A program made the translations under genes and the position numbers. Positions 25,193 through 56,551 of a DNA stretch of 64,000 nt are shown here, in pieces (the stretch's first letter is position 1; every line of letters begins with the position of its first letter). Origin of the DNA: Egicoccus sp. AB-alg6-2 (lineage in GTDB: Bacteria; Actinomycetota; Nitriliruptoria; Nitriliruptorales; Nitriliruptoraceae); NCBI RefSeq assembly GCF_041821025.1, contig NZ_JBGUAY010000003.1:248001-312000 (forward strand), given 5' to 3'. The notes beneath the pieces were generated by a model. It searched no databases and was not told the origin of the DNA. It saw only the letters and a list, made by a program, of their open reading frames with translations.

Positions 25193-25208
25193 GGACGAGG
25201 AGGCTGGC

Positions 25209-37092: not shown

Positions 37093-38220
37093 TCAGCGCA
37101 GGCGGGCGAGCACGTCGACGAGGTCCTCGAGACTGCCGAGGTCGTGTCCGGGCAGGAACGCGTCGACGTGCGGCAGCGCCGCTGCCATGCCCCGTTGCGT
37201 CGGCGCGTACCGCGGATCACCCGCCAGCGGGTTGACCCACACGAGTCGGTGGACGCTGCGGCGCAGTCGTGCGACGGAACGGCCGAGTCGCTGCGGGTCA
37301 CCGCGTTCGAGTCCGTCGGAGCACACCACCACCACGGCACCTCGCAGCACCCCGCGACGGCCCCACGTTCGCACCAGCCGGTCGACGCTGGCGGCGATGC
37401 GCGTCCCGCCGTCCCAGTCCACGACCCTCGCGGCGGCCTCGGCCAGTGCTGCATCGGGGTCACGGGTACGGAGCGCGTCGGTGAGTCGGGTCAGCCGCGT
37501 CCCGAAGGCGAACACCTCGACGCGTGCCCGGCGGCCGTGCGACCCGGCACCGGCCGCGACGGCGAACCGCAGCAACGGGCGGGCGTGGGCGGCCATCGAC
37601 CCGGACACGTCGAGGAGCACCACCAGCGGCCGCGGACGTGGCCGACGCGTGAGCCGTTCGAACTCCAGCACCTCACCCTCGAACCGCATGGCCCGCTCCA
37701 GGGTGCGTGACAGGTCGAACTCCTCCCCCGCTCCCGGCATCCGGCGCCGGGTGCGTCGTGCCGGGATCGACACCCGCAGGGCGTCGACCAGCCGGTCCAC
37801 CTGGTGGCGTTCGTGCTCCGCCAGCCGGTCGAAGCGGCGGTGACGCAGGCGCTCCTCGACCATGGCGAACCCGCCAGCGACCAGGTCGTCGTCGGGGGCG
37901 GCGCCACCGGAGCGGTCCGAGCCGGCATCGATGCCGGGATGCGACGCCTCGGCCACCAGCGACGGCAGCGGCGAACCCCCACCAGCCACCACCTCGGCGA
38001 AAACACGGTCGTAGACCGGAACGTGGTCGCGCCTGGAACACAGGGCGACCCGGCCGGCCCAGTAGCGGGCCTCGAGGTCCTCGGGGTCGATGCCGGCGAG
38101 GGCCGCAGCGCACGCGGTCGCCTGGCCCGTCCCCACGGCGACCCCTTCGCGGCGCAGACCGGCCGCCAGCGCCGCGACGTGCGCGGCGCCATCGTCGAGC
38201 AACCGACGTGGACCGCTCAC
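37093..38220 (-). CDS. coxE: CoxE-like VWA-domain protein
   Basis: 375 residues. The C-terminal half is a von Willebrand A domain with the MIDAS motif LLDVSGSMAAHARPLL and the further Asp in VVCSDGLERGD; the N-terminal half is helical and resembles CoxE. In carboxydotrophs CoxE works with the AAA+ protein CoxD to insert sulfur or copper at the molybdenum centre of CO dehydrogenase. Here it overlaps the coxD-like gene by 4 bp, and the XdhC-like gene is divergent. The likely client is the Mo hydroxylase encoded at 52.2-56.0 kb. Confidence 0.85.
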   Translation of the reverse strand: MSGPRRLLDDGAAHVAALAAGLRREGVAVGTGQATACAAALAGIDPEDLEARYWAGRVALCSRRDHVPVYDRVFAEVVAGGGSPLPSLVAEASHPGIDAGSDRSGGAAPDDDLVAGGFAMVEERLRHRRFDRLAEHERHQVDRLVDALRVSIPARRTRRRMPGAGEEFDLSRTLERAMRFEGEVLEFERLTRRPRPRPLVVLLDVSGSMAAHARPLLRFAVAAGAGSHGRRARVEVFAFGTRLTRLTDALRTRDPDAALAEAAARVVDWDGGTRIAASVDRLVRTWGRRGVLRGAVVVVCSDGLERGDPQRLGRSVARLRRSVHRLVWVNPLAGDPRYAPTQRGMAAALPHVDAFLPGHDLGSLEDLVDVLARLR

Positions 38221-39092
38221 GCCTCGATCCCGACCACCTCGTCGATCACACCGCGCACCGTGGCGAGGTCGTCGCGGTCCTTGATCACGACGCCGAGCGT
38301 GTCCGCCGCCACCTCGGCATCGAGGTGTCCGCCGAGGTCGACCGCCACCCGGGCCCAGTCGACCGTCTCAGCCACACCCGGTGGCTTGTGCAGGTCCAGC
38401 GCCCGCAACCGGGCCACCACGCCCGCGACCCGCTGCGCGAGTCCATCCGGCACGTCGGGCACGCGCGCCCGCACGATCGCCGCTTCGCGCTCGACGTCGG
38501 GGTGGTCGATCCAGTGGTAGAGGCAGCGACGTCGCAGCGCCTCGGAGAGTTCGCGGGTGCGGTTCGACGTCAGCACGACCATCGGGGGCCGCGCCGCCGT
38601 GATGGTGCCCAACTCGGGGATCGAGACCTGGAAGTCGCTGAGGATCTCCAGCAGGAACGCTTCGAACTCGTCGTCGGCACGGTCGATCTCGTCGACCAGC
38701 AGGACCGCACCGTCCCCCGCTTCGAGCGCTGTCAGCAGCGGCCGCGGCAGCAGGAACCGGCGCGTGTACAACTCGCTTTCGTGCTGGTCCGGCCGCTCCC
38801 CCGACGCCTCGAGGGTCCGCACGTGGAGCAGCTGGCGCGGGTGGTCCCAGGCGTACAGCGCCTGCGACCGGTCGATCCCCTCGTAGCACTGCAGCCGCAC
38901 CAGTCGTGCCCCGAGCACCTCCGCCATGGTCTTGGCGGCCTCGGTCTTGCCGACGCCGGCATCACCCTCGAGCAACAGGGGACGACCCAACCGGTGCGCC
39001 AGGTGCAGGGCCGTGACGAGCCCTCGGTCGGCGAGATAGGCGCGCTGCGCCAGGGCGTCGGCGAGCTCGGCCGGTCCCTCGGGTCGTGCCAC
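38217..39092 (-). CDS. coxD: CoxD-like MoxR-family AAA+ ATPase
   Basis: 291 residues: Walker A EGDAGVGKTE, Walker B VLLVDEIDRAD, sensor 1 VVLTSNRTRELSEAL and the arginine-finger region RRRCLYHWIDHP, all typical of MoxR ATPases. With CoxE it forms the usual MoxR-VWA chaperone pair. The sequence matches the CoxD subgroup that matures molybdenum hydroxylases. It is separated by 77 bp from the divergent XdhC-like gene. Confidence 0.87.
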   Translation of the reverse strand: MARPEGPAELADALAQRAYLADRGLVTALHLAHRLGRPLLLEGDAGVGKTEAAKTMAEVLGARLVRLQCYEGIDRSQALYAWDHPRQLLHVRTLEASGERPDQHESELYTRRFLLPRPLLTALEAGDGAVLLVDEIDRADDEFEAFLLEILSDFQVSIPELGTITAARPPMVVLTSNRTRELSEALRRRCLYHWIDHPDVEREAAIVRARVPDVPDGLAQRVAGVVARLRALDLHKPPGVAETVDWARVAVDLGGHLDAEVAADTLGVVIKDRDDLATVRGVIDEVVGIEA

Positions 39093-39169
39093 GAACCACT
39101 CCGTCGGTCGGGGGACGCGCAGTATCGTCGTCGGGGGCGGGAAACGCTGCCACCGACGAAGGAGCCCAC

Positions 39170-39700
39170 ATGGCCGCGTCCGATCCGGCCTGCGACGTCG
39201 CCCACGGCGACGGCGACCCGGAGCCCGCCGAGCGAAAGGTGCTGGTCGCGGTGTACGCCAACGCCGTCGCCTCGTACCTGCTGCACTGGGGCCGCGAGCT
39301 GGGCTTCCGGACGGTCCTGCTGGAACCCGACCCGTCGCGGGTCACCCGGGCACACCGCGCCGGTGCGGACGAGGTGTCGCACGACCCGGCCCGCGTGGAG
39401 GTCACCGGCGCGGACGTGGTGGTCACCGACCACCACCGCGACGACATCGGTGCCGTCATGGCACCCCTGGTCCGCGCACGACCACGCTGGATCGGCATCA
39501 TGGGCTCGCCGCGGCATCAGGGACCGCACGGCGACGCCCTGCGTGCCCAGGGCGTGGACGAGGCACTGATCGCGACGGTCCGCCGCCCCATCGGCCTCGA
39601 CATCGGCTCGAAGGCACCGGCGGAGATCGCCCTGTCCACGCTCGCTGGACTGCTCGCCGACCGCAACGGTCGCGACGGCGGCTTCTTCGACCACCGCTGA
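39170..39700 (+). CDS. XdhC/CoxF-family molybdenum cofactor maturation protein
   Basis: 176 residues from ATG 39170, with GAAGGAG 5 nt upstream. It corresponds to the C-terminal Rossmann domain of XdhC (WIGIMGSPRH, PIGLDIGSKAPAEIALS) and lacks the separate N-terminal XdhC/CoxI domain. XdhC binds sulfurated molybdopterin cytosine dinucleotide and hands it to apo-enzymes of the xanthine oxidase family. Its position beside coxD and coxE supports a joint role in activating the Mo hydroxylase encoded at 52.2-56.0 kb. Confidence 0.87.
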   Translation: MAASDPACDVAHGDGDPEPAERKVLVAVYANAVASYLLHWGRELGFRTVLLEPDPSRVTRAHRAGADEVSHDPARVEVTGADVVVTDHHRDDIGAVMAPLVRARPRWIGIMGSPRHQGPHGDALRAQGVDEALIATVRRPIGLDIGSKAPAEIALSTLAGLLADRNGRDGGFFDHR

Positions 39701-39732: not shown

Positions 39733-39797
39733 GTCAGGCCGGGGGCGTGGTCGTGTCAGGCCTGGGTGCGGTCGGCGTCAGGCCTGCTGCGGTCGGC
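39733..39797. repeat. Three degenerate 21-22 bp tandem repeats over the deoD stop
   Basis: Units beginning GTCAGGCC start at 39733, 39755 and 39777. The last two are nearly identical (GTCAGGCCTGGGTGCGGTCGGC and a copy one base shorter); the first is more diverged. The deoD stop is at 39756-39758, so the repeats encode its duplicated tail ([14 protein letters not shown]) and continue past it. Confidence 0.7.
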
Positions 39798-40529
39798 GTC
39801 GAGCTTGAGGCCCTCGAGCGCGATCTGGACCATCTCGTCGAAGGTGGTCTGCCGTTCGTCCGACGTGGTCGCCTCGCCGCTGCGGATGTGGTCGCTGACG
39901 GTGAGGATGGTCAGCGCGCGGGCGCCGTGCTCGGCCGCCACCCCGTAGATGCCGGCGGCCTCCATCTCGACGGCCAGCACCCCCATGGCGTTCATCATGT
40001 CGAAGTAGCCCGTCGCGCCACGTGGGTCGTAGAACAGGTCCGAGCTGTGCACGTTGCCGGCGTGGACGTCGATGCCATGTCGCTCGGCGGCCTCGGCGGC
40101 GGTGCGCAGCAGTCCGAAGTCGGCCGTGGCCGCGAAGTCGAGCCCGCCGTAGCGGGCCCGGTTCACCTGCGAATCGGTGCAGGCGCCGACGGCGAGGATG
40201 ACGTCGCGCAGCTTGACGTGGTCCTGGACCGCCCCGCACGAGCCCACGCGCACCAGCCGCTTCACGCCGTACTCGTTGACGAGCTCGGTGGTGTAGATCG
40301 ACGCGGACGGGATGCCCATGCCGGTGCCGAGCACCGAGACGGGCATGCCCTCGTAGCTGCCCGTGTAGGCGAACGCGTTGCGGACCGCGTTGACCTGACG
40401 GGCGTCGTCGAGGTGGTTGTCGGCGATGTGCTTGGCGCGCAGCGGATCACCTGGCAGCAGGACCGCCTCGGCGAAGTCGCCGGGGGCGGCGCTGATGTGG
40501 GGCGTGGGCGTCGGCACGTCGGTGCTCAC
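39756..40529 (-). CDS. deoD: Purine nucleoside phosphorylase, DeoD type
   Basis: 257 residues from GTG 40529, with GGA upstream. Family I phosphorylase motifs: [30 protein letters not shown] for phosphate binding, [12 protein letters not shown] for the ribose and the base-site Asp in TVSDHI. Hexameric DeoD enzymes split purine nucleosides into base and ribose-1-phosphate. The C-terminus carries a lineage-specific 14-residue duplicated tail. It could feed purine bases to the downstream catabolic cluster, but it is over 4 kb away. Confidence 0.93.
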
Positions 40530-40624: not shown

Positions 40625-41011
40625 TCAGCTGCCCCACTCCGGTGGCGGGTCCAGGCGCCCCTCGGCGAGGTTGTAGTTCTCGCGCAGCGACCGGCACCGG
40701 CCGTCCTCCCCCATGACCAGCAGCAGGGTGCCGGCGAGCGTGACGTCGGCGCCGTCGACCGCCATCTTCGTCCAGAATTCGACCGCGGCCCGGTTGCCGT
40801 CGACGAACGGGGCGCCCATGCGCACCTCGACGTCGCTCTGGTGCGAGGTCACGCGCTCCCAGTAGGCCGCGACCCCGTCCTGCCCCACGTTCGGGTCCGC
40901 GAAGATGTCGTTGCGGTAGGTGCCGTCCTCGACGAACAGCGACGACGCCAGGGCCACGTCGGCGCGCTCCCACGCGACGCGGTAGCGCTCGACCCAGGTT
41001 GCGATGTCCAC
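40625..41011 (-). CDS. SnoaL/NTF2-like protein
   Basis: 128 residues from GTG 41011, preceded by GAGGAGG. The sequence has the cone-shaped NTF2/SnoaL pattern: RYRVAWERADVALASSLF, YRNDIFADP, WERVTSHQSDVEVRMG and a final beta sheet. Such proteins are polyketide cyclases, isomerases or ligand binders; the function is not predictable. It is divergent from a VOC-family gene, 97 bp apart. Confidence 0.8.
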   Translation of the reverse strand: MDIATWVERYRVAWERADVALASSLFVEDGTYRNDIFADPNVGQDGVAAYWERVTSHQSDVEVRMGAPFVDGNRAAVEFWTKMAVDGADVTLAGTLLLVMGEDGRCRSLRENYNLAEGRLDPPPEWGS

Positions 41012-41108
41012 GCCGGTGTCCTCCTCAGTCGTGCCACGCTTCGTGTGTACGCGTCGTGCGACGCGGCATCATGACCTTCCGGCAAGCATGCCTCGGAGGC
41101 GATGACGA

Positions 41109-41486
41109 ATGCCGCAGTTCTCGCTCACCTCGACCGTTCTTGGCACCCCGGACCCGCGCGGGCTCGCCTGGTTCTACCAGCGGTTGCTCGGTTGGGACCT
41201 CGGTAGCGACGAGCCGGACTGGGTCACGTTGCGCCCTGCTGACGGCAGCGCCGGCCTGTCGTTCCAGGTCGAGGACCAGCACACCCCGCCGACGTGGCCG
41301 GCCGGCCGCGACGAGCAGCAGATGCAACTCCACCTCGACCTCGAGGTGGACGACCTCGAGGCGGCCGTCGCGTACGCCGTCGACGCCGGGGCGGTCGTGG
41401 CCGAGTTCCAACCGCAGGACGACGTCCGCGTGCTCATCGATCCGGCCGGTCACCCTTTCTGCCTGTGGATCAGCACCGGCACCTGA
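41109..41486 (+). CDS. VOC (glyoxalase/bleomycin resistance) superfamily protein
   Basis: 125 residues from ATG 41109 with GGAGG 9 nt upstream. Typical features are DPRGLAWFYQRLLGWDLG at the start and DPAGHPFCLW at the end. The usual first metal ligand His is replaced by a Thr/Ser-rich start (SLTSTVLGT), so it may not bind metal in the standard way. Substrate unknown. Confidence 0.83.
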   Translation: MPQFSLTSTVLGTPDPRGLAWFYQRLLGWDLGSDEPDWVTLRPADGSAGLSFQVEDQHTPPTWPAGRDEQQMQLHLDLEVDDLEAAVAYAVDAGAVVAEFQPQDDVRVLIDPAGHPFCLWISTGT

Positions 41487-41561
41487 CGCTGCGGCGCAGG
41501 TGCGCCGGTGTTTTCCCACAGGCTGCCGACGATCCGATCGGGTGGTGCCCCCTGGGTCTCG

Positions 41562-41573
41562 TATGGTCGATCC
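41562..41573 (+). promoter_or_regulatory. Leaderless-type promoter of the DUF222/HNH gene
   Basis: TATGGT (41562-41567) is followed by 6 nt and ATG 41574 with no ribosome site. Confidence 0.45.
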
Positions 41574-43117
41574 ATGCTCACGACGACCGCACCACACGCC
41601 CCCGTGCCGTACCCGCGGTTGCCCGACGGGGCGATCTCGGGACCACGGACCACCACGGTGCCTGGGTGGGCGGACCCGGCCGACACGTTCCCGGTGTTGG
41701 CCGAGGTGCCCGAGCCGGCCGGGCTGTTGGCGACGTTGCGGCAGGTGGACCGGTTGATCGCGTCCGCGATCGCGTCGATCATCCGGTTGCAGGACGCCTC
41801 AGTCGCCGAGACGGTCACCGGGTGCCGCTCGAGCAGTGGCTGCTGATCGTCGCCCGCCGTACCGGCACCGACCGCCGCATGCTGATGACGACCGCGGACG
41901 TGTGCCGACGTCTGCCCGCACTGTTGGAAGCGTTCGTGCAGGGTCGGGTGTCGTGGAGCCAGGTCCGCACCCTGGTGCTGCAGGTGCACCGGCTGCCCCA
42001 CGCCGACGACGAACAGCTCGACACCGCCCTCGCAGAGTTGATCCACCGCGCCGAGGGCGGCGACGCTGACCAGCTCGGACAGCTCGCCCGCTTCATCGAC
42101 CACGACTTCGGTGACCGCGGCGTCAGCGACAACGACCGTGAGGCGAGTGAGCCGGCCGAGTTCTTGGCGTTGCAGCCCCGCCTGGACGGCACCGGCGGCC
42201 GGTTCTTCGGCGAGGCCGGACCGGCCTCGTTCGCGATCCTGGAGAACGCCACCAACCCCGGCCCGCCCGAGGTGGCGACCGGACGCCGGTTCGGCCAGCA
42301 CGCCGACCGCGACACCACCCGCCAGCTGGCCGAATCGGCCGGACGGCGGCGGCTGACCCGCCTGATCGACCTGCTCGACCACACCTGCGACCCCGGCGGC
42401 GGGTCCGAAGCCGACGGCGACAACCGGAGGTCGCGGCCGACCCTGCTGGTCGTCGCCGATCTCGACACCCTGTGCGACCGTGACCAGACCCCGGCCCGTC
42501 TGCTGCACCATCTCGCCGGCGGACGCATGTACCTCACCAGCACCGCGGCACGCCGGCTGGTCGACCAACGCGGCGCGGAGCTGCGTACCACCATCCTCGA
42601 CGACACCGGCGCGGTGGTCGGCATCGGACGCAAACACCGGGACCCACCCGGTTGGCTCGCCGAGGGACTGCTGGCGCTGCACGACACCTGTACCGAACCG
42701 GGCTGCACCACCGCGTCACGGTCGTGCCAGATCGACCACGCCATCGCATGGCATCCCGCCCGGCCCGGCGATCTGCTCGGACGCACCGACGCCGACAACC
42801 TCGCCCCGTTGTGTACCTCGGCGAACCGGACCAAAGAAGCGGACGGCTGGACCTGCACCCAGACCGCCGACGGCACCAGACGCTGGCGCCACCCACGCAC
42901 CGGCCTGACCACGACCACCATCCCCGCCGGCACCCGCCCACCCTGGCTCCCAGCCGCCAGACCCCCCGACCGGCACGAACCCCGCGCAGGACCCGACCGA
43001 CACCAGCCCCGCGCCGGCCCCCTCGACGACCGACCCCGCGGCTCCCGCAGCCGGCCCCCACCCCTGGACCGACCGCCCGACCACGCCGACGACCCGGCTG
43101 CGCCCCTGCCCTTCTGA
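41574..43117 (+). pseudogene. DUF222/HNH endonuclease-like gene with N-terminal frameshift
   Basis: ATG 41574 opens the N-terminal part (PVLAEVPEPAGLLATLRQVD) of a DUF222 (13E12-repeat-like) protein, but that frame meets a stop shortly after 41846. From about 41821 another frame continues with family sequence (PLEQWLLIVARRTGTDRRML) to 43117. One missing G in the GGG run at 41820-41822 would restore a 515-residue protein. The C-terminal HNH module keeps CQIDHAIAW and the central Asn of DADNLAPLC, but where relatives have HHRxKH this one reads ANRTKEADGW, so the last metal-binding His is absent. Both features suggest decay, although the frame break could be a sequencing error. Confidence 0.72.
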
Positions 43118-43145
43118 ACCCGCCAACACCCACCCCACCGCACCA

Positions 43146-43191
43146 AGCCCACCACGATCGCGCCGCACCCGCGGCCGATCCGTGGTGGGCT
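43146..43191. terminator. Hairpin between convergent genes
   Basis: AGCCCACCACG (43146-43156) pairs perfectly with CGTGGTGGGCT (43181-43191) around a 24-nt loop that can pair further at its base (ATCG/CGAT). It lies between the DUF222 gene end (43117) and the hypothetical protein gene end (43219) and probably terminates both. Confidence 0.6.
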
Positions 43192-43218
43192 CGACGTGTG
43201 CGCGGGTAGTCGCGCGAG

Positions 43219-44115
43219 TCAGCGCTGCCCGGTAGGTCCGCCGGAGACGCCAGCCGAGGCTCGCCGTTGGAGGCGGTAGTGCAGGCGGAGGACTTCGGCA
43301 CCGTGGAGGCGGAGCTGGTGGTCGCAGCGCACCACCCCTGAAGCGTCGACGAAGACCTCGAAACGCTCCGGCAGCGGGATACGCCGGGCCCACCCGCGGT
43401 CGCTGCCGGCGGGACGCACCACCAGATAGGCGCCGTCCTCCCCGAAGTCACCGCGGGGTGACGCCAGTCGGAGGCCGCCCCCGTCCGTGGCGTCGGGACG
43501 CAGGAACACGGTCGCGCTGCCGTTGGGCAGGGGGAAGACCACGCGGATCGACGGGCGCGCCGCCCCCGGCAACCTCACGACGCCGTAGAAGCCGCCGAAC
43601 ACGGTGGCACCGGTCGCCCGCAGGGTCCGCTGCCACGCCGTGCCGAGGTGCCGCCCCTCGGCGTCGGCGAAGGTGATGACGCGACTCTCCATCCCGTAGA
43701 CGGTGTGGAGGGGGTCGAGCGGCAGTGCGAGCTGCCGAAGTCGTCGCGCGAACAGTGCGTCGAGCACGCGGCCTCCGGGCTCGGCCCACCGCGACCATCG
43801 CGACCACACCTCGAGGTCCCACCGTGCGGTGGACTCGTAGAAGTCCCGTACCTCGCCGAGGAGCCGGGCAGCGTCGAAGCCCGGACCGTCGCAGGAACGG
43901 AAGTCGGGCAGTAACCCGCCGTCACCGTCCTCGGCGAGTGACGCCCCCACCCGTGCGGCGTGCTCGCCGATCCAGGCGTCACCGATCGCTTCGGGCGCGC
44001 CGACCGGTCCATCGAGCCACGCGTGCTCGACGAATGCGACCGGACGGCCCGTGGCGATCACCCAGCGCTGTGTGGCGCGATCGAGGAGCGCTCCGCGCAA
44101 CGGTCCGGTCCCCAT
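43219..44115 (-). CDS. Conserved-looking protein of unknown function
   Basis: 298 residues from ATG 44115, chosen because GGGGAG lies 5 nt upstream. It is soluble, with an N-terminal segment rich in acidic residues and a C-terminal half predicted to be beta-rich (VFGGFYGVVRLPG, SIRVVFPLPNGSATVFLRP, FEVFVDASGVVRCDHQLRLH). I do not recognise a family or catalytic motif. It is divergent from a nucleotidyltransferase gene, 89 bp apart. Confidence 0.75.
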   Translation of the reverse strand: MGTGPLRGALLDRATQRWVIATGRPVAFVEHAWLDGPVGAPEAIGDAWIGEHAARVGASLAEDGDGGLLPDFRSCDGPGFDAARLLGEVRDFYESTARWDLEVWSRWSRWAEPGGRVLDALFARRLRQLALPLDPLHTVYGMESRVITFADAEGRHLGTAWQRTLRATGATVFGGFYGVVRLPGAARPSIRVVFPLPNGSATVFLRPDATDGGGLRLASPRGDFGEDGAYLVVRPAGSDRGWARRIPLPERFEVFVDASGVVRCDHQLRLHGAEVLRLHYRLQRRASAGVSGGPTGQR

Positions 44116-44204
44116 ACCACTCCCCTGCCAGGCGAGCACCGTAGTCGTGCGCGCACCGGGGGCTACGGTCGTCGCGAAGTGTCGCCACGACGCTGGGAGG
44201 GCCG

Positions 44205-45020
44205 ATGGTTCGCGATCCTCGCGAAGGGGTCACCGAGGACGGCACGATCACCACCGGAGCCGATGCCCGGCGGATCCCGGCCGCCTACCGCGAGACGATC
44301 GCCGATGCCGTTTCGACGTTGCGCGACACGCTCGGCGAGCTCGCCCACAGCGTCTACGTCTACGGCAGCGTCGCGACCGGCCAGGCGAGACCTCCGCGCT
44401 CGGACCTCGACCTGATCGTCGTCGTCGAGACGTCGGCGCCCGAAGCCGTTCGTGCGGCCGCCACCGGGTTGAGCCACCGGCACCGAGACCTCGTGCGCGA
44501 GGTCGCGATCGGGAGCGTGGACCTCGAGACGCTGCGTCGGCAGGACCGCGTCGGCCGCGCCGAGCGGTGCTTCCTGAAGCACTACGCCGTGCATCTGGCC
44601 GGTCCCGACCTGCGCGCCGACCACCCGACGTGTCGTGCGACGGAGGATCTCGCCTGCGGGTTCAACCGTGACCTTCGAAGGGTGCTCGACCAGGTACGGC
44701 CACCGCTGCTGGGGGCAGACGACGGGGACCAGCGCGCCGCGGCCGCCGCCCGAGCCTGCCGCAAGATCCTGATGGCGGCCGCGACGCTGCTCAGCGTCCG
44801 TGAGGGAGGCTGGTCGACCGATCGGCGGACGGCGGTGGAACTCGTCGGTCGGCACGCACCTGAGCTGTACGAGCTCGCGGCGGACGCCCTGCGCTACGGC
44901 GAGGACGCACCGATGCCGGTCGCGCCGGACGTCGGGCGCGCCGTCGAGATCGTCGACAGACTCGGGGGCTGGCTCGTCGACGAGTACGCGCGGTCGGCCG
45001 TGCGCCACGACAGCCGGTGA
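44205..45020 (+). CDS. Nucleotidyltransferase-domain protein
   Basis: 271 residues with GGGAGG upstream. The polymerase-beta-like minimal fold is shown by VYVYGSVATGQA and SDLDLIVVV, the GS-x9-12-DxD motif that binds Mg-ATP, with a further Asp in GSVDLETL. The C-terminal half is helical and resembles the DUF4111/KNTase-C type. It could nucleotidylate a small molecule such as an aminoglycoside or a protein. No antitoxin partner is adjacent. Confidence 0.82.
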   Translation: MVRDPREGVTEDGTITTGADARRIPAAYRETIADAVSTLRDTLGELAHSVYVYGSVATGQARPPRSDLDLIVVVETSAPEAVRAAATGLSHRHRDLVREVAIGSVDLETLRRQDRVGRAERCFLKHYAVHLAGPDLRADHPTCRATEDLACGFNRDLRRVLDQVRPPLLGADDGDQRAAAAARACRKILMAAATLLSVREGGWSTDRRTAVELVGRHAPELYELAADALRYGEDAPMPVAPDVGRAVEIVDRLGGWLVDEYARSAVRHDSR

Positions 45021-45041: not shown

Positions 45042-46202
45042 TCAGCGCTCGCCGAGGATCTCCGCGTCGTGTTCGCCCAGCATCGGCGGCGGGGTCGGCG
45101 ACCGACGGCCGGAGCGGGACCAGTCGACCGGCGCGCCCGGCAACTCGAGGTCACCTGCGGTCGGGTGCGTGACCCGGTCGACGAGTCCGAGGTGCTCCAG
45201 CTGGTCCCAGCCGTACACCTGGTCCATGGTGCGGATCCGGCCGGCGGGAACGCCCGCGTCGTTGAACCGGGCCATCCACGTGTCGACGTCGTCGGACACG
45301 AGCACGGCGTTGATCTCGGCCTCGAGCTCGTCCCAGTTGGCGACGCGATCACGGTTGGTGGCATAGCGGGGGTCGTCGACGGCGATCCCGACGGCCGGCG
45401 CGAAGCGCTGCCACAGGCCCTCGGAGCCCACGGCGACGTTCACCCAGCCGTCGGCACAGGTGAACGCGCCGTACGGGGCGATCGTCGGGTGGCGGTTCCC
45501 ACCGGGCTCGGGCACCTCACCCGCCAGGGTCCACCGCGTGCCCTGGAAGGTGTGCACGGCGACGGCGGATGCCAGCAGCGAGGTGGAGACCCGCTGGCCC
45601 TTGCCGGTGCGCTCGCGCTCGTGGAGCGCGGCCACCACGCCGTAGGCGCCGAACATGCCCGAGAGGATGTCGGTGATGGGGACGCCCATCTTCGTCGGGG
45701 GCCCCCCGACAGGACCGGTGATGCCCATCAGGCCGGCCTCGCCCTGGATGATCTGGTCGAATCCCGAGCGCTCGCCGTCCGGGCCGCCTTCACCGAAGCC
45801 GGTGATCGACAACACCACGAGGCGTTCGTTGCGGGCTTCCAGCGCGTCGGGTCCCAGGCCGAGCCGTTCCATGACGCCGGGCCGGAAGTTCTCGACGAGG
45901 ACGTCCGCCTCGTCGATGAGCGTGTGCAGGCGAGCGACGTCGTCGTCGTCCTTGAGGTCGAGGGTGACCGACTTCTTGGAGCGGTTGATGGAGAGGTAGT
46001 AGGCCGATTCGGACTCCCCCTCACCCACGAACGGCGGCCCCCAGCCGCGCGTGTCGTCACCGGCGCCCGGCCGCTCGACCTTGATCACCTCGGCGCCGGC
46101 GTCGGCCAGCATCATCGTGGCGTAGGGGCCCGACAGGGCGCGCGACAGGTCGACCACGCGGATCCCGGCCAGGGGTCCGGTCGCCGCTCGCTGCTCCGCC
46201 AT
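45042..46202 (-). CDS. CaiB/BaiF class III CoA-transferase
   Basis: 386 residues from ATG 46202, with GAGG 7 nt upstream. N-terminal LAGIRVVDLSRALSGPYATM, EVIKVERPGAGDDTRGWGPP and the interlinked-ring fold motifs are those of class III CoA-transferases (formyl-CoA:oxalate, carnitine and related enzymes). Where this family carries the catalytic Asp/Glu (TSLL[D/E]A context) the sequence reads VSTSLLASAVAVHTF, so the acid appears to be Ala. It follows hyuB by 55 bp on the same strand and is last in the catabolic block. If active, it could convert oxalate or another acid product into its CoA ester; the substrate is not determined. Confidence 0.85.
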   Translation of the reverse strand: MAEQRAATGPLAGIRVVDLSRALSGPYATMMLADAGAEVIKVERPGAGDDTRGWGPPFVGEGESESAYYLSINRSKKSVTLDLKDDDDVARLHTLIDEADVLVENFRPGVMERLGLGPDALEARNERLVVLSITGFGEGGPDGERSGFDQIIQGEAGLMGITGPVGGPPTKMGVPITDILSGMFGAYGVVAALHERERTGKGQRVSTSLLASAVAVHTFQGTRWTLAGEVPEPGGNRHPTIAPYGAFTCADGWVNVAVGSEGLWQRFAPAVGIAVDDPRYATNRDRVANWDELEAEINAVLVSDDVDTWMARFNDAGVPAGRIRTMDQVYGWDQLEHLGLVDRVTHPTAGDLELPGAPVDWSRSGRRSPTPPPMLGEHDAEILGER

Positions 46203-46257: not shown

Positions 46258-48153
46258 TCAGAGGACGTCGACCTCGGGGAAGGCACGACCATCGGGGTCG
46301 AGTTGGGCGTACCCCGGTCCACGGTCGAAGAACGCCGACGGCTGACCCCGCTCCTCGCGCAGGCGGGCGCGGAGGGCGTCGGTGGCATCGCCGTCGACCT
46401 GCGGGTCGTCGTCGGAACCGGTCACCACGACCCCGTAGTCGTCGCGCGCACCGTCCCGGCTGACCTTGCCCCACTGCACGTCGCGACGGACGAGGTCGGG
46501 GTCGCGTTCGAGCGGATCGCCCCAACCCCCTCCGCCCGTCGTGCGGATGCGCACGACCTGGCCGGCCCGGATCGGCTCGTCGTCCACGAGTCCCTCGAGT
46601 TCGCGTTCGTCTGGGCCTCCGGGATCGATCGTCACGCGGAACGGGGCTCCGGCCCGCCCCCCGTTGACGCCCCAGCAGGCGAGGATCGAGCGGTCCGCGA
46701 TCGACATGAACGAGGCATCCTCGAGCATCCGGATCCACTTGTCGTAGCCGAGGCCTCCGCGGTACTGCCCGGGACCACCGGAGTCGGTGGCGAGACCGAG
46801 CTTCTCGACCCGGAAGGGGAACCGGGACTCGGTGAACTCCGTCGGCAGGTTTCGCGAGTCGGGCACGACGTGGATCGTGTCCTCGCCGTCGCTGTAGTAG
46901 CGACCACCGGAGCCGCCGCCGAGGACCTCGCGCATCAGGTACGAGCTGCCGTCGGCGCGGGTGCCGTAGACGCCGGTGTAGCGGATCGTCTCCTGGTCGG
47001 CGGGCATGCGGCCGTTCGTGGCCTTGGCGAGCACGCCCGCGAGGACGCCGAGGAGGCGCAGGATCACGAACGTCCGGGCGTTGGTCGGTGCGGGAAAGAC
47101 CGGGGTGAGCAGCGTCCCCTTGTCGGGGAACCGCATCTCGATCAGGTCGACGATGCCCTCGTTGACGTCGAGTTCCGCCATGCGTTCGGGCGTGTCGGCG
47201 AGGTTGCGCAGGATCGGGGCGAGCCACTTCTTGAGGAAGTTGCCGTCGGCGTAGTCGCCGCAGTGGTTGATCGGACCCTTCGCCTGCGGGGAGGTGCCGG
47301 TGAAGTCGATCACCAGGCGCGCCCGGTCGGTGTCGCCGCCCTCCTTGGTCAACGTGATCCGTTGACGGTGCAGCTTCGGGGCGTCGACGCCGTCGTGCTC
47401 GGCGTAGTCCTCCCAGACGTAGGTCCCGTCGGGGATCTTCGGCAGGATCTCGCGGCGGTAGGTGTCGGTGTTGTTGGACACGATCGCGTCGAAGCAGGCC
47501 TCGACGGTGGCGACCCCGTAGCGGTCGAACAGCTCCGACAGGCGTCGCGAGCCCATCAGGCAGGCCGAGCACTCGGCGTCGAGGTCGCCGGCCAGCGACT
47601 CGGGCATCCGCGAGTTGCGGGTCATGATCGTCAGCGCCGCCTGGTTCGGCACGCCGCGGTCCCACAGCTTGATCGGCGGGACCATCAGGCCTTCCTCGAA
47701 GACGCTGCGGGCGCCCGACGGCATCGAGCCGGGGACGCACCCGCCGATGTCGTCGTGGTGCCCGAACGCCTGCACGAACGCGACGACGCGCGGCTGCTCA
47801 CCGGCACTGGCATGGAAGACGGGCACCGTGACACACAGGTCCGGCAGGTGGCCGATGCCGCCCTCGGAGAGGTAGACGTCGTTGTGGAAGAACACGTCAC
47901 CCGGCTGCATCGTGTCCAGCGGGAAGTCGCGCGCGACCGGATGCACCAGTGCGGAGTAGGACCGGCCGGTCAGCTTCCGCAGCTTCGCGTCGTGGATGCC
48001 GGCCCGGTAGTCGTGGGCGTCACGGATCATCGGCGAGCGCGACGTGCGGCCGATGGCGTCCTCGACCTCCTTCTCGATCGAGGCGAGCGTGCCCTGCACG
48101 ATTTCGAGCACGATCGGGTCGACGCCGGTGGCGGCGAGCTCGGCGGTGGTCAT
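46258..48153 (-). CDS. hyuB: Hydantoinase/oxoprolinase B-type subunit
   Basis: 631 residues from ATG 48153, overlapping the hyuA stop by 4 bp. It matches HyuB: DPIVLEIVQGTLASIEKEVEDAI region at the N-terminus, HPVARDFPLDTMQPGDVFFHND, FGHHDDIGG with paired His, and NHCGDYADGNFLKK, ending in GGGGWGDPLERDP. With HyuA it forms ATP-dependent N-methylhydantoinase, 5-oxoprolinase or acetophenone/caprolactam-type carboxylase/hydrolase complexes. In this context, beside a Mo hydroxylase and carbamoyl-transfer genes, an ATP-driven cyclic amide or ureide hydrolase is most likely. Confidence 0.9.
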   Translation of the reverse strand: MTTAELAATGVDPIVLEIVQGTLASIEKEVEDAIGRTSRSPMIRDAHDYRAGIHDAKLRKLTGRSYSALVHPVARDFPLDTMQPGDVFFHNDVYLSEGGIGHLPDLCVTVPVFHASAGEQPRVVAFVQAFGHHDDIGGCVPGSMPSGARSVFEEGLMVPPIKLWDRGVPNQAALTIMTRNSRMPESLAGDLDAECSACLMGSRRLSELFDRYGVATVEACFDAIVSNNTDTYRREILPKIPDGTYVWEDYAEHDGVDAPKLHRQRITLTKEGGDTDRARLVIDFTGTSPQAKGPINHCGDYADGNFLKKWLAPILRNLADTPERMAELDVNEGIVDLIEMRFPDKGTLLTPVFPAPTNARTFVILRLLGVLAGVLAKATNGRMPADQETIRYTGVYGTRADGSSYLMREVLGGGSGGRYYSDGEDTIHVVPDSRNLPTEFTESRFPFRVEKLGLATDSGGPGQYRGGLGYDKWIRMLEDASFMSIADRSILACWGVNGGRAGAPFRVTIDPGGPDERELEGLVDDEPIRAGQVVRIRTTGGGGWGDPLERDPDLVRRDVQWGKVSRDGARDDYGVVVTGSDDDPQVDGDATDALRARLREERGQPSAFFDRGPGYAQLDPDGRAFPEVDVL

Positions 48154-50339
48154 CGGTCGCTCCTGTCGCGCTCGACCACGAGGTTGGCGAGGCCGTCCAC
48201 GCGGGCCTGGAAGCCGGGGTGGATCGGCACGGTGGAGCCGAACTCCTCGACGATCGCCGGGCCGACGATCACGTCGCCGGCGAGCAGCCGTTCGCGGGCG
48301 TAGACCTGCGCGCCGGCGGCGGCACCCTCGAACACGACCGGCCGGTCGCCCGTGCGCGCGCGCGTCGCGTCGCCGTCGCCTTCCGGCAGGCGCGGAAGCA
48401 CCGGCCGCGGGATGGGGCCGATGCCCGTCACTCGGAGATTCACCCACTCCACCGGGTGGCGGTGACGGTGCTCCCCACCGCTGGCGGCCGAATCGGCGCG
48501 ATAGGCATAGCCGTAGAGGCGTTCGTGCTCGTCGTGGAACGCGTCGACCACCGAGCGCTGGAAGGCCTCGTCGATCGGCCCGTCCGGCGCGGGGACCCGC
48601 ACCTCGAACGCCTGGCCGTCGTAGCGCAGATCGGCCGTGCGTACGAACCGGTGCTCGTCCGCGTCGAAGCCCTCGCGGTCGAGTGCATCGGCGGCGCGCG
48701 CCTGCAACGAGCGATAGACCGCCGCCAGTTCGTCGCGGTCGAGCGCGTCGTCGCGCACCACGTGGGTCTGGACGTAGTCGTTCTTGACGTCGACGGTCAG
48801 CAGCCCGAAGGCGGACAGGTTGCCGGGATCGCGGGGCACGATCACGGCCGGCAGGCCGAGGATGTCGATGAGCCGGCAGATCAGCAGCGGCCCCGATCCC
48901 CCGAAGGCGGCCATGGTGAAGTCGCGCACGTCGAGCCCGCGCTTGACGGTGACCTGGCGGATGGCATTGGCCTGGTTCCACGCCGAGATCTCGAGGATGC
49001 CGCGGGCGGCGTCCTCGGGCGACAGGCCGAGCTCGCCGGCCAGGGTCTCGATGCCGGCACGCGCCGCGTCGCGGTCGAGGCCGATCTCGCCGCCCAGCAG
49101 ATGCGGCGGGATGCGTCCGAGGAACACGTGCGCGTCGGTGACGGTCGGTTCCGTGCCCCCGCGGCCGTAACAGATCGGACCCGGGTCGGCGCCGGCCGAG
49201 CGAGGACCGACCTTGAGGGTGCCCTCGGGGCTGATCCAGGCGATCGAGCCACCGCCCGCACCGACGGTGACGATGTCGATCATGGGGATCTTGGACGGGA
49301 ACCGGCCGACGGAACCCTCGGTGGTCAGCGTCGGCTCGCCCCCGAGGACGACCGACACGTCGGTCGAGGTGCCCCCGCCGTCGCACGTGAGCAGCTTGTC
49401 GTAGCCGGCCTCGCCGGCCACCAGTGCGGCGCCGAGGGCGCCGGCCGCAGGCCCCGACAGCACCGTGGTGATCGGCTGGTGGACGACCTCGTCGGCACTG
49501 ATGACGCCGCCGTTGGACTTCATGACGTAGAACGGAACGGATGCGGGGGGCTCCGCCCCCCGCAGACCCCCCGAGACCGGCTCGTCACCACGGGTGGCCT
49601 GGTCCAGGCGGGCTGCGATGTTGCGCACGTAGCGCGTGACCTTCGGCTTGACCGACGCGTCGACCAGCGTCGTGACGGTGCGCTCGTACTCGCGGTACTC
49701 GCGCAGCACCTCGCTCGACAGCGACACGACGGCGTCGGGGTGCTCGGCGGCCAGGACCTCGCGCAGACGCCGTTCGTGCCGGTCGTCGGCGTAGGCGTGC
49801 AGCAGGCACACCCCGATGGTGTCGATCCCGCGGTCGCGGAACCAGCGGGCGACCTCGACGGCGCCGTCGACGTCGAGGGGGCGCACCTCGGCGCCGGTGT
49901 GGTCGAGCCGTCCGCGGACCTCGCGGACCAGGTCGACCGGCACGATGCGGTCCGGCTTGACCCAGAAGTAGCTGTTGCCGTAGCCGTCGGGAACCGACTG
50001 CCGCGCGATCTCGAGGATGTGGCGGTAGCCCTCGGTGGTGATCAGCCCGACCCGCTCGACCGCGTCCTCGAGCAGCGCGTTGGTCGCCACCGTGGTGCCG
50101 TGCGAGACGCCGGTGACGTCCTGCCCCGACGCGCCGAGGATGTCGAGGACCTTGCGGACGCCGTCGAGGAAGCCGATCGACGGGTCGGCCGGGGTCGACG
50201 GGGTCTTGGTGGTGATGATCCGGCCGGTGTCGTGCTCCACGGCGACCACGTCGGTGAACGTGCCACCGGTGTCGATGCCGATGCGCACGCCGCCGCTGGT
50301 CTCGCGATGTTCGGACACGGTGGTCTCACTCCTGCTCAT
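48150..50339 (-). CDS. hyuA: Hydantoinase/oxoprolinase A-type subunit
   Basis: 729 residues from ATG 50339, overlapping the amidase stop. The actin-like ATPase is clear: RIGIDTGGTFTDVVA, GVSHGTTVATNALLE, LTCDGGGTSTDVSVV, VGAGGGSIAWI and AFGGSGPLL. It is the ATP-binding half of the HyuAB complex. Length is normal for the family. Order in transcription is coxG, amidase, hyuA, hyuB, all overlapping by 4 bp, which indicates tight co-translation. Confidence 0.92.
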   Translation of the reverse strand: MSRSETTVSEHRETSGGVRIGIDTGGTFTDVVAVEHDTGRIITTKTPSTPADPSIGFLDGVRKVLDILGASGQDVTGVSHGTTVATNALLEDAVERVGLITTEGYRHILEIARQSVPDGYGNSYFWVKPDRIVPVDLVREVRGRLDHTGAEVRPLDVDGAVEVARWFRDRGIDTIGVCLLHAYADDRHERRLREVLAAEHPDAVVSLSSEVLREYREYERTVTTLVDASVKPKVTRYVRNIAARLDQATRGDEPVSGGLRGAEPPASVPFYVMKSNGGVISADEVVHQPITTVLSGPAAGALGAALVAGEAGYDKLLTCDGGGTSTDVSVVLGGEPTLTTEGSVGRFPSKIPMIDIVTVGAGGGSIAWISPEGTLKVGPRSAGADPGPICYGRGGTEPTVTDAHVFLGRIPPHLLGGEIGLDRDAARAGIETLAGELGLSPEDAARGILEISAWNQANAIRQVTVKRGLDVRDFTMAAFGGSGPLLICRLIDILGLPAVIVPRDPGNLSAFGLLTVDVKNDYVQTHVVRDDALDRDELAAVYRSLQARAADALDREGFDADEHRFVRTADLRYDGQAFEVRVPAPDGPIDEAFQRSVVDAFHDEHERLYGYAYRADSAASGGEHRHRHPVEWVNLRVTGIGPIPRPVLPRLPEGDGDATRARTGDRPVVFEGAAAGAQVYARERLLAGDVIVGPAIVEEFGSTVPIHPGFQARVDGLANLVVERDRSDR

Positions 50340-51613
50340 GCCGGCAACAGGGACGCGAGCAGACGTGCCGCCCCCAGGGCCAGGCCGTCGTCGTGCGCGC
50401 GGGCGACGGTCTGGACGCCCAGCGGCAGCCCGTCCGCCCCGGTCAGCCCCGGGACCGCGACGGTCGGCAGACCGAGCAGCGTCCAGGGGCGGCACAGCAT
50501 CGGGTCCCCGGTCGTCGCGGCGTCGGGCGCCTCACCGAGCACGCTCGGGGCCAGCAGCACGTCGACGTCGGCGAAGACGTCGCCGAGCTGTCCCAGGCAC
50601 CGCTCCCGCAGTGCGACCGCCCGGTCGTAGTCGCTGACCAACTGCCGGGCGTCGTCGAGGTAGGCGCGCAGCCGGGCGCTCAGCCGGGCGGCGTGGTGGT
50701 CGATCTCGTCGGCGAGGGCGTCGAGCACCTCGGTGCCCATCACGACCTGCTGTGCCTCGACCAGCCCGGCGAAGGCGCCGGGCAGGGTGACCTCGACGAA
50801 CTCGACGTCGTCGGCGAGACGTTCGACGGCCCCGAGGATGCGCCCCCGGGCACTGCGCTCGACGGCCTGCCACCACGGCGTGCGCACGAAGCCGATGCGG
50901 GGTCGCGGACCGGGTTCGACGGGCCGGAACCGCTCGTGGTCGTCGGCCATCACGCCCAGGCCCAGCGCGACGTCGTCGACGTCGTTGCCGAGGAGGCCCA
51001 CCGTGTCGAGACTCGGCGAGCACAGCTTGACCCCGTCGAGCGGCAACGCGCCGAAGGTCGGTTTGGCGCCGACGACGCCACAGAACGAGGCCGGGCGCAC
51101 GACCGACCCGGCGGTCTGGGTTCCGATCGCCAGCGGCACCGTGCCGGCCGCGACCGCCGCGGCCGAGCCGCTGGAGGACCCGCCCGGCGTGCGGGTCTGG
51201 TCGTGGGGATTGCGCGTCGGACCGGGCTGGAACAGGGCGAACTCCGTGGTGACCGTCTTGCCGATGACGACGGCACCGGCGGCGCGCAGCCTGGCGACCG
51301 CGACGGCGTCGGCATCGGGCCGGCGGCCGGCGTAGATCGGGGAGCCGTGCGCGGTCGGTTGGTCGGCCGTGTCGACGATGTCCTTGACCCCGACCGGCAC
51401 GCCGTGCAGCGGGCCACGCTCGTCGGCCGGCATGGCGTCGAGCGCCCGGGCCTGCACGAGTGCGGCTTCGGGATCGAGGTGCGCCCAGGCGTGCAGGTCG
51501 TCCTCGCGCGCCGCGATGGCGTCGAGGTGGCCTTGCACGACCTCGACGACCGACGTCTCGCCGGCCTCGACGCGGGCGCGGATCTCCCCGGCGGTTCCCA
51601 GCGGCGCCGTCAC
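50336..51613 (-). CDS. Amidase signature-family enzyme
   Basis: 425 residues. The Ser-cisSer-Lys triad is visible: Lys77 in GVPVGVKDIVD, cis-Ser at 145-146 in RTPGGSSSGSAAA, and the nucleophile Ser169 in GTQTAGSVVRPASF. The family hydrolyses linear amides, including oxamate-like, carbamoyl and malonamate-type substrates. Set between coxG and hyuA with 4-bp overlaps, it probably acts on the ring-opened product of HyuAB or on the oxamate-like product of AllFGH. It lacks the extra C-terminal domain of allophanate hydrolase. Confidence 0.92.
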   Translation of the reverse strand: MTAPLGTAGEIRARVEAGETSVVEVVQGHLDAIAAREDDLHAWAHLDPEAALVQARALDAMPADERGPLHGVPVGVKDIVDTADQPTAHGSPIYAGRRPDADAVAVARLRAAGAVVIGKTVTTEFALFQPGPTRNPHDQTRTPGGSSSGSAAAVAAGTVPLAIGTQTAGSVVRPASFCGVVGAKPTFGALPLDGVKLCSPSLDTVGLLGNDVDDVALGLGVMADDHERFRPVEPGPRPRIGFVRTPWWQAVERSARGRILGAVERLADDVEFVEVTLPGAFAGLVEAQQVVMGTEVLDALADEIDHHAARLSARLRAYLDDARQLVSDYDRAVALRERCLGQLGDVFADVDVLLAPSVLGEAPDAATTGDPMLCRPWTLLGLPTVAVPGLTGADGLPLGVQTVARAHDDGLALGAARLLASLLPA

Positions 51614-52245
51614 GGCCGCAGGCGCCGGCCGACCAGCACGCCGGCGAGCGCGACGAGCGCGCCGAGCCCGAACGCGGCCAGCAGCTCCGGCAGCCGGCTG
51701 CCGGACCCGCCCGCCGCGGCACGGCCGGCGAAGACCTGGCCGACCTCGGCGGTGGTGGCGGCCCGGGCGTCCCCCCCGACGGCGGGAGCCGCGGCCGCCG
51801 CCGGGCCGTGCAGCAGCTCGCGTTCGACGGCGGCGAAGAACTCGCCCGCTGTCTTCTTCGCGACGCCGGCCAGCATCCGCTGCCCGACGCCGCCGATCAT
51901 GCCGCCGATCACGGCGTCGGCGTCGAAGGTGACGGCCGTGGTGCCGTCACCCTGCTCGGCCAGGTCGATCACCGCATCGGCGCGGATGGTGCCGGGCGCG
52001 CCGGCTCCCTCGGCCCGGAGGCGGTAGTTCGACGGCTCCTGCCGGTCCGAGAGCTGGACCCGCCCCTGGTAGGTGCCCTTGACGCTCGCGACACCGGCGG
52101 TGACCGTGGCGGCGTAGGTGTCGTCGCCCGTCACCTCCAGTGCCTCGCAGCCGGGGATGGTGCGGGCGAGGACGGCGGGATCCTGCAGCGCGTCCCAGAC
52201 CTGCTGACGCGGCGCCGCCACGGTGTAGGTACCGGAGATCTTCAC
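51610..52245 (-). CDS. coxG: CoxG-like SRPBCC protein with C-terminal membrane anchor
   Basis: 211 residues. Residues 1-145 are an SRPBCC/START-like fold of the CoxG type (ISGTYTVAAPRQQVWDALQD, PGCEALEV), then a flexible Ala/Gly-rich linker and a C-terminal membrane helix (LLAAFGLGALVALAGVLVG) with a basic end. CoxG of carboxydotrophs anchors CO dehydrogenase at the membrane, and recent work on mycobacterial CoxG shows it extracts menaquinone for the enzyme. Here it would link the Mo hydroxylase to the quinone pool. Confidence 0.9.
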   Translation of the reverse strand: MKISGTYTVAAPRQQVWDALQDPAVLARTIPGCEALEVTGDDTYAATVTAGVASVKGTYQGRVQLSDRQEPSNYRLRAEGAGAPGTIRADAVIDLAEQGDGTTAVTFDADAVIGGMIGGVGQRMLAGVAKKTAGEFFAAVERELLHGPAAAAAPAVGGDARAATTAEVGQVFAGRAAAGGSGSRLPELLAAFGLGALVALAGVLVGRRLRP

Positions 52246-54623: not shown

Positions 54624-55147
54624 GGCTGCACCTCCGGCCGGTGCTGCTGGCGTGGGTCGGCGCCCGTCGCGCGAAAGGCCCCGGCGGCCTGCTCGACCGC
54701 GGCCAGGATGCCGGCGTAACCGGTGCAGCGGCACAGGTTGCCCGCCATGCCCTCGCGGACGTCGTCGTGGTCGGCGTCGGGGTGCTCGGCGAGGAAGCCA
54801 CAGGCCGACATCACCATGCCGGGCGTGCAGAAGCCGCACTGCAGCCCGTGGCAGTCGCGGAACGCGGCCTGCACCGGGTGCAGGGTGCCGTCGTCGGCGG
54901 CCAACCCTTCGACGGTCGTCACCTCCGCGCCGTCGACGGCGACGGCGAAGACCAGGCACGACCGCACGTTGCGCCCGTCGAGCAGCACGGTGCAGGCACC
55001 GCACACCCCGTGTTCGCAACCCACGTGGGTCCCGGTCAGCCGCAGATCGTGACGCAGGAAGTCCGACAACAACCGGCGGGCGGGCACCGTCGCACGGTGC
55101 AGCGCGCCGTTGACGGTCACCGTGACCTCGTGGTGTGGCTCGGTCAC
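54620..55147 (-). CDS. Molybdenum hydroxylase 2[2Fe-2S] small subunit (CoxS-like)
   Basis: 175 residues from GTG 55147, overlapping the FAD subunit stop. A plant-type [2Fe-2S] centre is formed by GCEHGVCGACTVLLDG plus the Cys in VRSCLVF, and the helical [2Fe-2S] centre by LQCGFCTPGM and NLCRCTGY. Both are complete. It relays electrons from the molybdenum site to FAD. Confidence 0.95.
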   Translation of the reverse strand: MTEPHHEVTVTVNGALHRATVPARRLLSDFLRHDLRLTGTHVGCEHGVCGACTVLLDGRNVRSCLVFAVAVDGAEVTTVEGLAADDGTLHPVQAAFRDCHGLQCGFCTPGMVMSACGFLAEHPDADHDDVREGMAGNLCRCTGYAGILAAVEQAAGAFRATGADPRQQHRPEVQP

Positions 55148-56185: not shown

Positions 56186-56551
56186 TCACGCGGCGGCGAT
56201 CTCGGCCAGTTGCGCCGTCAGGCTCGCGAAGTCGCTGCCCTTCTGCAGGCAGGCACGGGCACCCAGACCGATCACCTGCTCGCAGAGCGACGGCTCGGCG
56301 AAACCGGTCAGGACCACGACGCGGGGCGAGGGGTCGTGCAGGTGGGTGAGGACCTCGAGGCCGTCCATCCGCGGCATGGCGAGATCGAGCAGCAACAGGT
56401 CGGGACGCAGGTCCGCGACCAGCTCCAGGGCCTCGGCTCCGTCCTCGGCTTCACCGACCACCTCGAACCGTCCGTCGCGCTCGAACAGCAGCCGCAGCAG
56501 CCGCCGCAGCGTCGCGTCGTCGTCGGCGAGCACCAGGCGCCACGTCATCAT
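56186..56551 (-). CDS. Stand-alone receiver (CheY-like) protein
   Basis: 121 residues from ATG 56551, which overlaps the PAS protein stop by 4 bp. Receiver landmarks: LADDDA, phosphoacceptor Asp56 in LLLDLAMPRMDG and the Thr/Lys positions VVLTGF and CLQKGSD. It has no output domain. It is coupled to a PAS protein whose kinase core is degenerate, so its phosphate source is unclear. The pair sits between the AllFGHK-like genes and the Mo-hydroxylase operon. Confidence 0.87.
   Translation of the reverse strand: MMTWRLVLADDDATLRRLLRLLFERDGRFEVVGEAEDGAEALELVADLRPDLLLLDLAMPRMDGLEVLTHLHDPSPRVVVLTGFAEPSLCEQVIGLGARACLQKGSDFASLTAQLAEIAAA

Follow-up and report, generated by a model that had tools for sequence, protein, structure and literature searches.

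Which enzyme is served by a set of molybdenum (Mo) hydroxylase maturation genes that stands apart from the hydroxylase genes themselves? The question is raised by a stretch of 64,000 nucleotides from Egicoccus sp. AB-alg6-2 (contig NZ_JBGUAY010000003.1, positions 248,001 to 312,000; hereafter the window), in which coxE, coxD and a gene of the XdhC type form a small divergent cluster at 37.1-39.7 kb, and the structural genes CoxL, CoxS and CoxM of a Mo-hydroxylase lie with CoxG at 51.6-56.0 kb, all four on the minus strand. Both groups were placed correctly by the original prediction, in which the separation was taken as the sign of either a rearranged operon or a maturation set shared by several Mo enzymes. 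In the present analysis, the three genes probably serve the Mo-hydroxylase at 51.6-56.0 kb as its own, dedicated maturation set, and the likeliest identity of this client is that of a uracil/thymine dehydrogenase. The genes, their order, their co-occurrence and their active-site signatures are observed; from them we infer all of the reactions as well as the part that the set plays in maturation in this organism.

Maturation genes and their probable client

The coxE gene (37093..38220, minus strand, GTG start) encodes a VWA protein of 375 amino acids that matches PF05762 VWA_CoxE with 197 bits (Pfam cut-off 26.4) and carries an intact metal ion-dependent adhesion site (MIDAS) motif, with the residues DVSGS as well as GGT and SDG, and is thus a member of the CoxE family. 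It overlaps by 4 bases with coxD (38217..39092) on the same strand, which codes for a MoxR-type AAA+ ATPase of 291 amino acids (Pfam AAA_5, 54.8 bits, cut-off 22) with the Walker A motif GDAGVGKT at residue 43 and the Walker B motif VLLVDEID at residue 130, features that class it as CoxD. Divergent to coxD, with 77 bases separating their starts, a plus-strand gene (39170..39700; the open reading frame is open from GTG 39086) specifies a protein of 176 amino acids from its ATG, whose sole Pfam match is PF13478 XdhC_C, the Rossmann half of XdhC (90 bits, cut-off 29.7). The PF02625 XdhC/CoxI domain was not found in it with Pfam at E <= 0.001, so that the predicted XdhC character holds for the XdhC_C domain, but the protein is a partial XdhC and not a full XdhC/CoxF. 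Among three genomes of the same genus, the ratio of nonsynonymous to synonymous substitution rates (dN/dS) was 0.13-0.21 for coxD, 0.22-0.27 for coxE and 0.18-0.24 for the XdhC_C gene, indicating selection on all three, which is counted in favour of a dedicated maturation set. Genes were called with our own codon-usage script, by which starts are approximate; since the script missed coxD at one locus (L057), where tblastn recovered it, and made a MobA call in L011 that overlaps an opposite-strand MoCF match, the presence or absence of coxD, coxE, XdhC_C and CaiB in key stretches was rechecked by tblastn.

The set and its client were compared across 35 genomes of the family (G000-G034, G000 being the assembly of the window), with window-type genes defined by identities of at least 69% for CoxL and at least 50% for CoxE. 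Window-type CoxL was found in 18 of the 35 genomes and window-type CoxE in 16, both together in 16; that is, CoxE is present in 16/18 genomes with this CoxL versus 0/17 without it (Fisher p 4e-8, a value that ignores relatedness). The two CoxL-positive genomes without CoxE, G001 and G026, are 77% and 75% complete, and three genera (g6, g9 and g12) each include members with the pair and members without it, although the g6 genome that lacks it is only 71% complete. The count of 16 includes two fragments of ~150 residues with 72% identity (G022 and G027), whose surroundings lie outside the gene-order set, and three CoxE of only 51-52% identity (G005, G008 and G017), which are no closer than some CoxE of other families and were counted partly on their position beside HyuA-HyuB-CaiB; the remaining CoxE rows of the family, left uncounted, show at most 48% identity. 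In a tree of 29 CoxE sequences, 11 family members including that of the window form one set with support of 100/100.

Gene order leads to the same enzyme. The hydroxylase belongs to a minus-strand series that runs from a gene for an NCS2 permease (63988) to one for a CaiB-type CoA-transferase (45042) with intergenic gaps of -4 to 189 bases; the 12 kb of separation first reported therefore stands when measured from the coxD start (39092) to CoxG (12.5 kb), but falls to 5.9 kb when measured to the CaiB end of the same series. Fourteen family stretches including the window were available, four of which (G019, G030, G006 and G031) end before CaiB could show, and in 9 of the 10 informative ones CaiB is located within 10 kb of coxD. 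The two genes overlap in G007 and G014, and in G010 a purine nucleoside phosphorylase (PNP) alone intervenes. Taken together, the co-occurrence and the linkage of CaiB to coxD indicate that the client conserved in the family is the window enzyme and that the gap is a lineage-specific break-up, which bears out the rearranged operon of the original prediction. Within the family the set would have adjoined or belonged to one catabolic cluster, whose parts are separated by other genes in the lineage of the window. The stretch now lying between the maturation genes and the series (40625..45020) holds SnoaL-like, glyoxalase-like (judged by eye), DUF222 and nucleotidyltransferase-like genes and one unassigned gene, and its gene content varies among relatives.

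Several observations weigh against a set dedicated to this enzyme. The distance from coxD to CaiB is ~30 kb in G003, a member of the same genus. The 14 window-type CoxE of the family in the tree do not form one clade, that of G008 pairing with the CoxE of G044 from another family, whose coxE (L057) adjoins a form I CoxL with the loop AYRCSFR, and CoxE of at least 50% identity is found beyond the family in G044, G050 (in part), G072, G086 and G091. Furthermore, tblastn found no CoxD, CoxE or XdhC_C in the stretches (7-20 kb) around the same CoxL in any of seven genomes from other families of the same class (G037, G038 and G049-G053), all of which have the catabolic series, mostly in compact form, and a CoxE elsewhere. 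In those genomes maturation of the enzyme evidently proceeds with no such set close by, and a nearby coxDE characterises the family of the window without being required by the enzyme.

The catabolic series and its substrate

Domains MoCoBD_1, MoCoBD_2, Fer2/Fer2_2 and FAD_binding_5 are distributed across the three subunits of the client, which is accordingly a Mo-hydroxylase of the xanthine oxidase type. Its large subunit has the loop PYRGAGR at residue 360 in place of the AYxCSFR of form I aerobic CO dehydrogenase, and its best solved relatives are the N-heterocycle hydroxylases quinoline 2-oxidoreductase and 6-hydroxypseudooxynicotine dehydrogenase, ahead of CO dehydrogenase. The cysteine of the AYxCSFR loop is the copper ligand in form I CO dehydrogenase; as this residue is absent from the window CoxL, copper insertion is not expected.

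Just beyond the window end lies a barbiturase-type gene (G000:C3:312223-313326, corresponding to L115:4223-5326, minus strand) with a match to the barbiturase family PF09663 at G000:C3:312232-313317, and next to it stands a divergent gene for a PucR-type regulator on the plus strand. Of 61 genomes, 26 carry window-type CoxL, and 23 of these also have the barbiturase family, which is missing from all 35 others; the three exceptions are G027, G031 and G044, the last of which has only a CoxL fragment. Among solved structures the ring-opening protein is closest to barbiturase 5hwe (E 1e-160); for cyanuric acid hydrolases the best value is 3e-91. Specificity residues of barbiturases are given as N, H, K, V and S/A at AtzD positions 195, 321, 325, 345 and 346 in PMC3758960; the protein of G000 has N, H, K, V and G, so that four of five are barbiturase-like and the fifth is as in cyanuric acid hydrolase. 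Among 33 other aligned rows, some of which may represent one genome twice, 21 show all five residues, six are like that of G000, in five the second residue is T, and one is a fragment (G003 and G014 show 5/5, G010 4/5). Where hydrolases have Arg188, glutamine is indicated for the barbiturase subgroup in PMC4051656 and Asn at the matching AtzD position in PMC3758960, the positions of the two sources being equated by our own reading; Asn was used and is also what our alignment shows.

Relatives add genes of cytosine metabolism: the cluster of G010 includes a cytosine permease (NF008241, 387 bits, cut-off 326), and Embleya sp. NBC_00888 (L149) has a cytosine deaminase (NF006685, 580 bits, cut-off 483) in 37 kb around barbiturase that also contain CoxMSLG with the PYRGAGR loop, AllFGH-like genes, carbamate kinase, HyuAB and CaiB, and in which tblastn found neither CoxD nor CoxE. 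This locus is on a linear replicon of 5.7 Mb, and a nitrilase-type hydrolase stands beside CoxG in the place of the window's amidase. It was one of two close matches in a plasmid search, the other being Nonomuraea (L150), with no CoxL match by tblastn in 37 kb; 130 further matches were under 60% identity, and genes in these two PLSDB stretches were called by our own script. The link between the ring-opening gene and CoxL is looser in five Acidimicrobiales/Acidimicrobiia loci (L141-L145), where a ring-opening gene of 58-59% identity with the signature NTKVA is found near a CoxL of 43-44%. Rhodococcus was absent from the 28 loci matched by two short barbiturase patterns in a scan of named organisms.

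Barbiturase, carbamate kinase, the AllFGH-like proteins, the permease and the cytosine permease and deaminase of relatives suggest that the client is a uracil/thymine dehydrogenase, and this context suggests that the window Mo-hydroxylase oxidises uracil to barbiturate. A pathway can be proposed along the series, all of whose genes are on the minus strand. Uracil would be imported by the NCS2 nucleobase permease (62531..63988) and oxidised to barbiturate by CoxM, the FAD subunit (55144..56016), CoxS, the 2Fe-2S subunit (54620..55147; both named from Pfam), and the CoxL-like large subunit (52242..54623), proposed as that of uracil/thymine dehydrogenase and followed by CoxG (51610..52245, PF06240). 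Barbiturase would convert barbiturate to ureidomalonate, which may be split by phosphorolysis into malonamate and carbamoyl phosphate by an AllFGH-like enzyme, comprising AllG-like (57644..59050; PF06545, 320 bits, cut-off 27), AllF/FdrA-like (59047..60519; NF004760, 403 bits, just below the cut-off of 433) and AllH-like proteins (60519..61415; PF11392, 80 bits, cut-off 25). Carbamate kinase (61412..62341; NF009007, 298 bits, cut-off 266; equivalog TIGR00746, 336 bits, below the cut-off of 358) would then make ATP, an amidase (50336..51613, PF01425) would yield malonate, and the CaiB/BaiF-type CoA-transferase (45042..46202), the last gene of the series, might activate malonate to its coenzyme A ester. 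HyuA-like (48150..50318; caprolactamase alpha model, 503 bits, below the cut-off of 1000) and HyuB-like subunits (46258..48153; named by eye and kept in relatives) are encoded between the amidase and CaiB. A response regulator and a PAS-containing sensor (56186..57543, by eye) lie inside the series between CoxM and AllG, and homologues are also found near CoxM in G003 (L095). Elsewhere in the window, at 22842-26366, three genes resemble those of the glycolate oxidase GlcDEF, as judged by eye.

A client that is rightly identified but acts on another substrate, such as a purine, hydantoin, cyanuric acid or another cyclic ureide, has an appreciable chance of being correct, though a minor one. Weighing against uracil, a DeoD-type PNP (39756..40529, minus strand; TIGR00107, 324.8 bits, cut-off 232) adjoins coxDE here and in several relatives and, like the NCS2 permease, whose closest model is a xanthine permease matched below its cut-off, could suggest a purine substrate; for HyuAB there is no clear step if barbiturase opens the ring. 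By NCBIfam NF052395 (455.8 bits, cut-off 360) the ring-opening enzyme would be named a cyanuric acid amidohydrolase. Barbiturase is nevertheless preferred to cyanuric acid hydrolase on the best solved relative and on four of the five signature residues, and the cytosine permease or deaminase within the clusters of relatives speaks for pyrimidines.

Other hydroxylases of the genome and the XdhC_C protein

The original prediction had called for CoxL and coxDE to be counted in the whole genome and for gene order to be compared in relatives, and had named as its refutation another CoxL operon without coxDE of its own, shown to be the real client. In G000 (3.74 Mb, 24 contigs, 98% complete) three CoxL matches were found, on contigs C1 and C2 and in the window. 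C1 holds a complete operon S, L, M, D, E, XdhC, G, MobA (names partly by eye), with an XdhC-family protein of 373 amino acids, and for the C2 enzyme (CoxL at G000:C2:63429-65690, L012) the L gene is divergent to those of S and M. Within the genome, VWA_CoxE is matched in the window and on C1, by a MoxR/VWA pair on C7 and, weakly, on C4. A window coxDE shared by several Mo-hydroxylases, notably the C2 enzyme, is an unlikely explanation. It draws on the finding that tblastn detected no CoxD or CoxE in 20 kb around the C2 CoxL and no CoxE match across contig C2, and on the other-family genomes that keep CoxE only elsewhere, by which sharing is possible in principle. Against it, C2-type CoxL (at least 50% identity) is found in 2 of the 35 family genomes, versus 16 with window-type coxE, gene order links coxDE to the window series, and C1 has its own D-E-XdhC-G-MobA. 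The C2 operon fits the named refutation in form, but it does not track the maturation set, and a shared set is not favoured; in this one genome, the C2 enzyme may still share the window coxDE.

The XdhC_C protein has a longer form in relatives. Homologues of 359-377 amino acids in G005, G017 and G008 (L055:7049-8152, L056:12011-13144 and L060:5812-6891) join a MoCF_biosynth (MogA/MoaB) domain, a histidine-rich linker and XdhC_C, and the shorter proteins found in the window and in six relatives can be aligned to the part beyond the linker, the C-terminal half. Full-length MogA-XdhC_C matches were found in at least two genomes (G005 and G017) in a scan of 396 genomes of the phylum, a lower bound, since at most five candidates per genome were scored and the known fusion of G008 is absent from the 71 matching genomes. 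A MogA-like gene is separate, 0.1 and 1.5 kb from coxE, in G081 and G095 (both family f6); in G000 a MoCF match adjoins the C1 cox operon, and there are three further MoCF matches.

That the fragment is a decaying remnant without function is improbable. It is without the XdhC N-terminal domain and, compared with the three relatives, without the MogA half, and tblastn gave no XdhC_C match in the coxD stretch of G007, G010 or G014 (G010 has one elsewhere); but its dN/dS of 0.18-0.24 indicates selection, and many residues are invariant across ten XdhC_C sequences, among them C8, A11, H12, G13, the C-terminal RPIG, DIGS and PAEIA. The C, A, H and G that are invariant close to its start, and the linker of the longer forms, suggest a role in metal handling.

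With the dedicated set as the preferred explanation, CoxD, the AAA+ ATPase, and CoxE, its VWA adaptor, would act on the folded apoenzyme and complete the Mo site by sulfuration; in the simplest view, the two jointly finish a plain Mo-sulfido site. The XdhC_C protein may handle the molybdenum cofactor, by delivery or protection, before or during sulfuration, and the XdhC of C1 possibly supplies the N-terminal domain that it is missing.

An aerobic CO dehydrogenase with its usual coxDE, as the NCBIfam name 'CODH_aero_grp5' would have it (NF040766, 1435 bits, cut-off 950), was rejected as very improbable on the PYRGAGR loop without a copper-ligand cysteine, the catabolic neighbours of CoxL and a score of 464 on the CODH equivalog TIGR02416, below its cut-off of 991. 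The 'cox' framing is misleading for this genome, as all three of its CoxL carry a GAGR loop (PYRGAGR, AYRGAGR and SYRGAGR) and AYxCSFR is found in none of the three. The names attached to NF040766 (CO dehydrogenase) and NF052395 (cyanuric acid amidohydrolase) fit neither residues nor context.

Comparison with known systems

An oxidative pathway with uracil/thymine dehydrogenase as its first step was described in the 1950s, as cited in PMC3758960; a gene assignment for this enzyme was not found in our searches of an open-access library, most subscription papers being outside its scope. The window offers a concrete gene candidate. It is tentatively proposed, as a more doubtful extension, that the locus represents a complete oxidative pyrimidine set with a dedicated Mo-hydroxylase, barbiturase, AllFGH-type phosphorolysis giving carbamoyl phosphate and ATP and not urea, and a private maturation set in which MogA, which adenylates the cofactor, and the XdhC Rossmann domain are joined in some relatives through a histidine-rich, possibly metal-binding linker, the genus of the window having the XdhC half only. 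Neither such a complete pyrimidine gene set nor a MogA-XdhC fusion was found described in our searches of an open-access library; the part of PMC13197769 that was available mentions MoeA-MobB fusions, not MogA-XdhC. On the reading preferred here, the public names 'CO dehydrogenase' and 'cyanuric acid amidohydrolase' would mislabel a conserved actinobacterial pyrimidine cluster. In addition, the association of coxDE with enzymes that lack the copper-ligand cysteine bears on how copper-specific the role of CoxE is.

In Oligotropha carboxidovorans, sulfuration of the Mo site requires coxD, and the insertion of copper requires coxE/coxF (PMC4240915). As in that system, an AAA+ CoxD, a VWA CoxE and an XdhC-family protein occur together near a CoxMSL-type Mo-hydroxylase. 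Unlike there, the client of the window is without the AYxCSFR cysteine, so that the copper insertion proposed for CoxE/CoxF is not expected, the XdhC_C protein is without the N-terminal XdhC domain of CoxF, and the maturation set is divergent and detached. The barbiturase pathway of Rhodococcus erythropolis (Soong et al. 2001/2002, as reported in PMC3758960 and PMC4051656) shares with the window ring opening of the barbiturase type, a candidate oxidising Mo-hydroxylase and the pyrimidine theme; unlike that pathway, no ureidomalonase is assigned here, and the AllFGH-like proteins and carbamate kinase suggest phosphorolysis with a gain of ATP. The corresponding reaction is performed with oxalurate by AllFGH of E. 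coli, the oxamic transcarbamylase (PMC11326118), where, with AllK, the arrangement is similar to the AllF-, AllG- and AllH-like proteins beside carbamate kinase in the window. It differs in that the context here is one of pyrimidine oxidation, and the substrate expected of the window's enzyme would be ureidomalonate, one CH2 longer than oxalurate.

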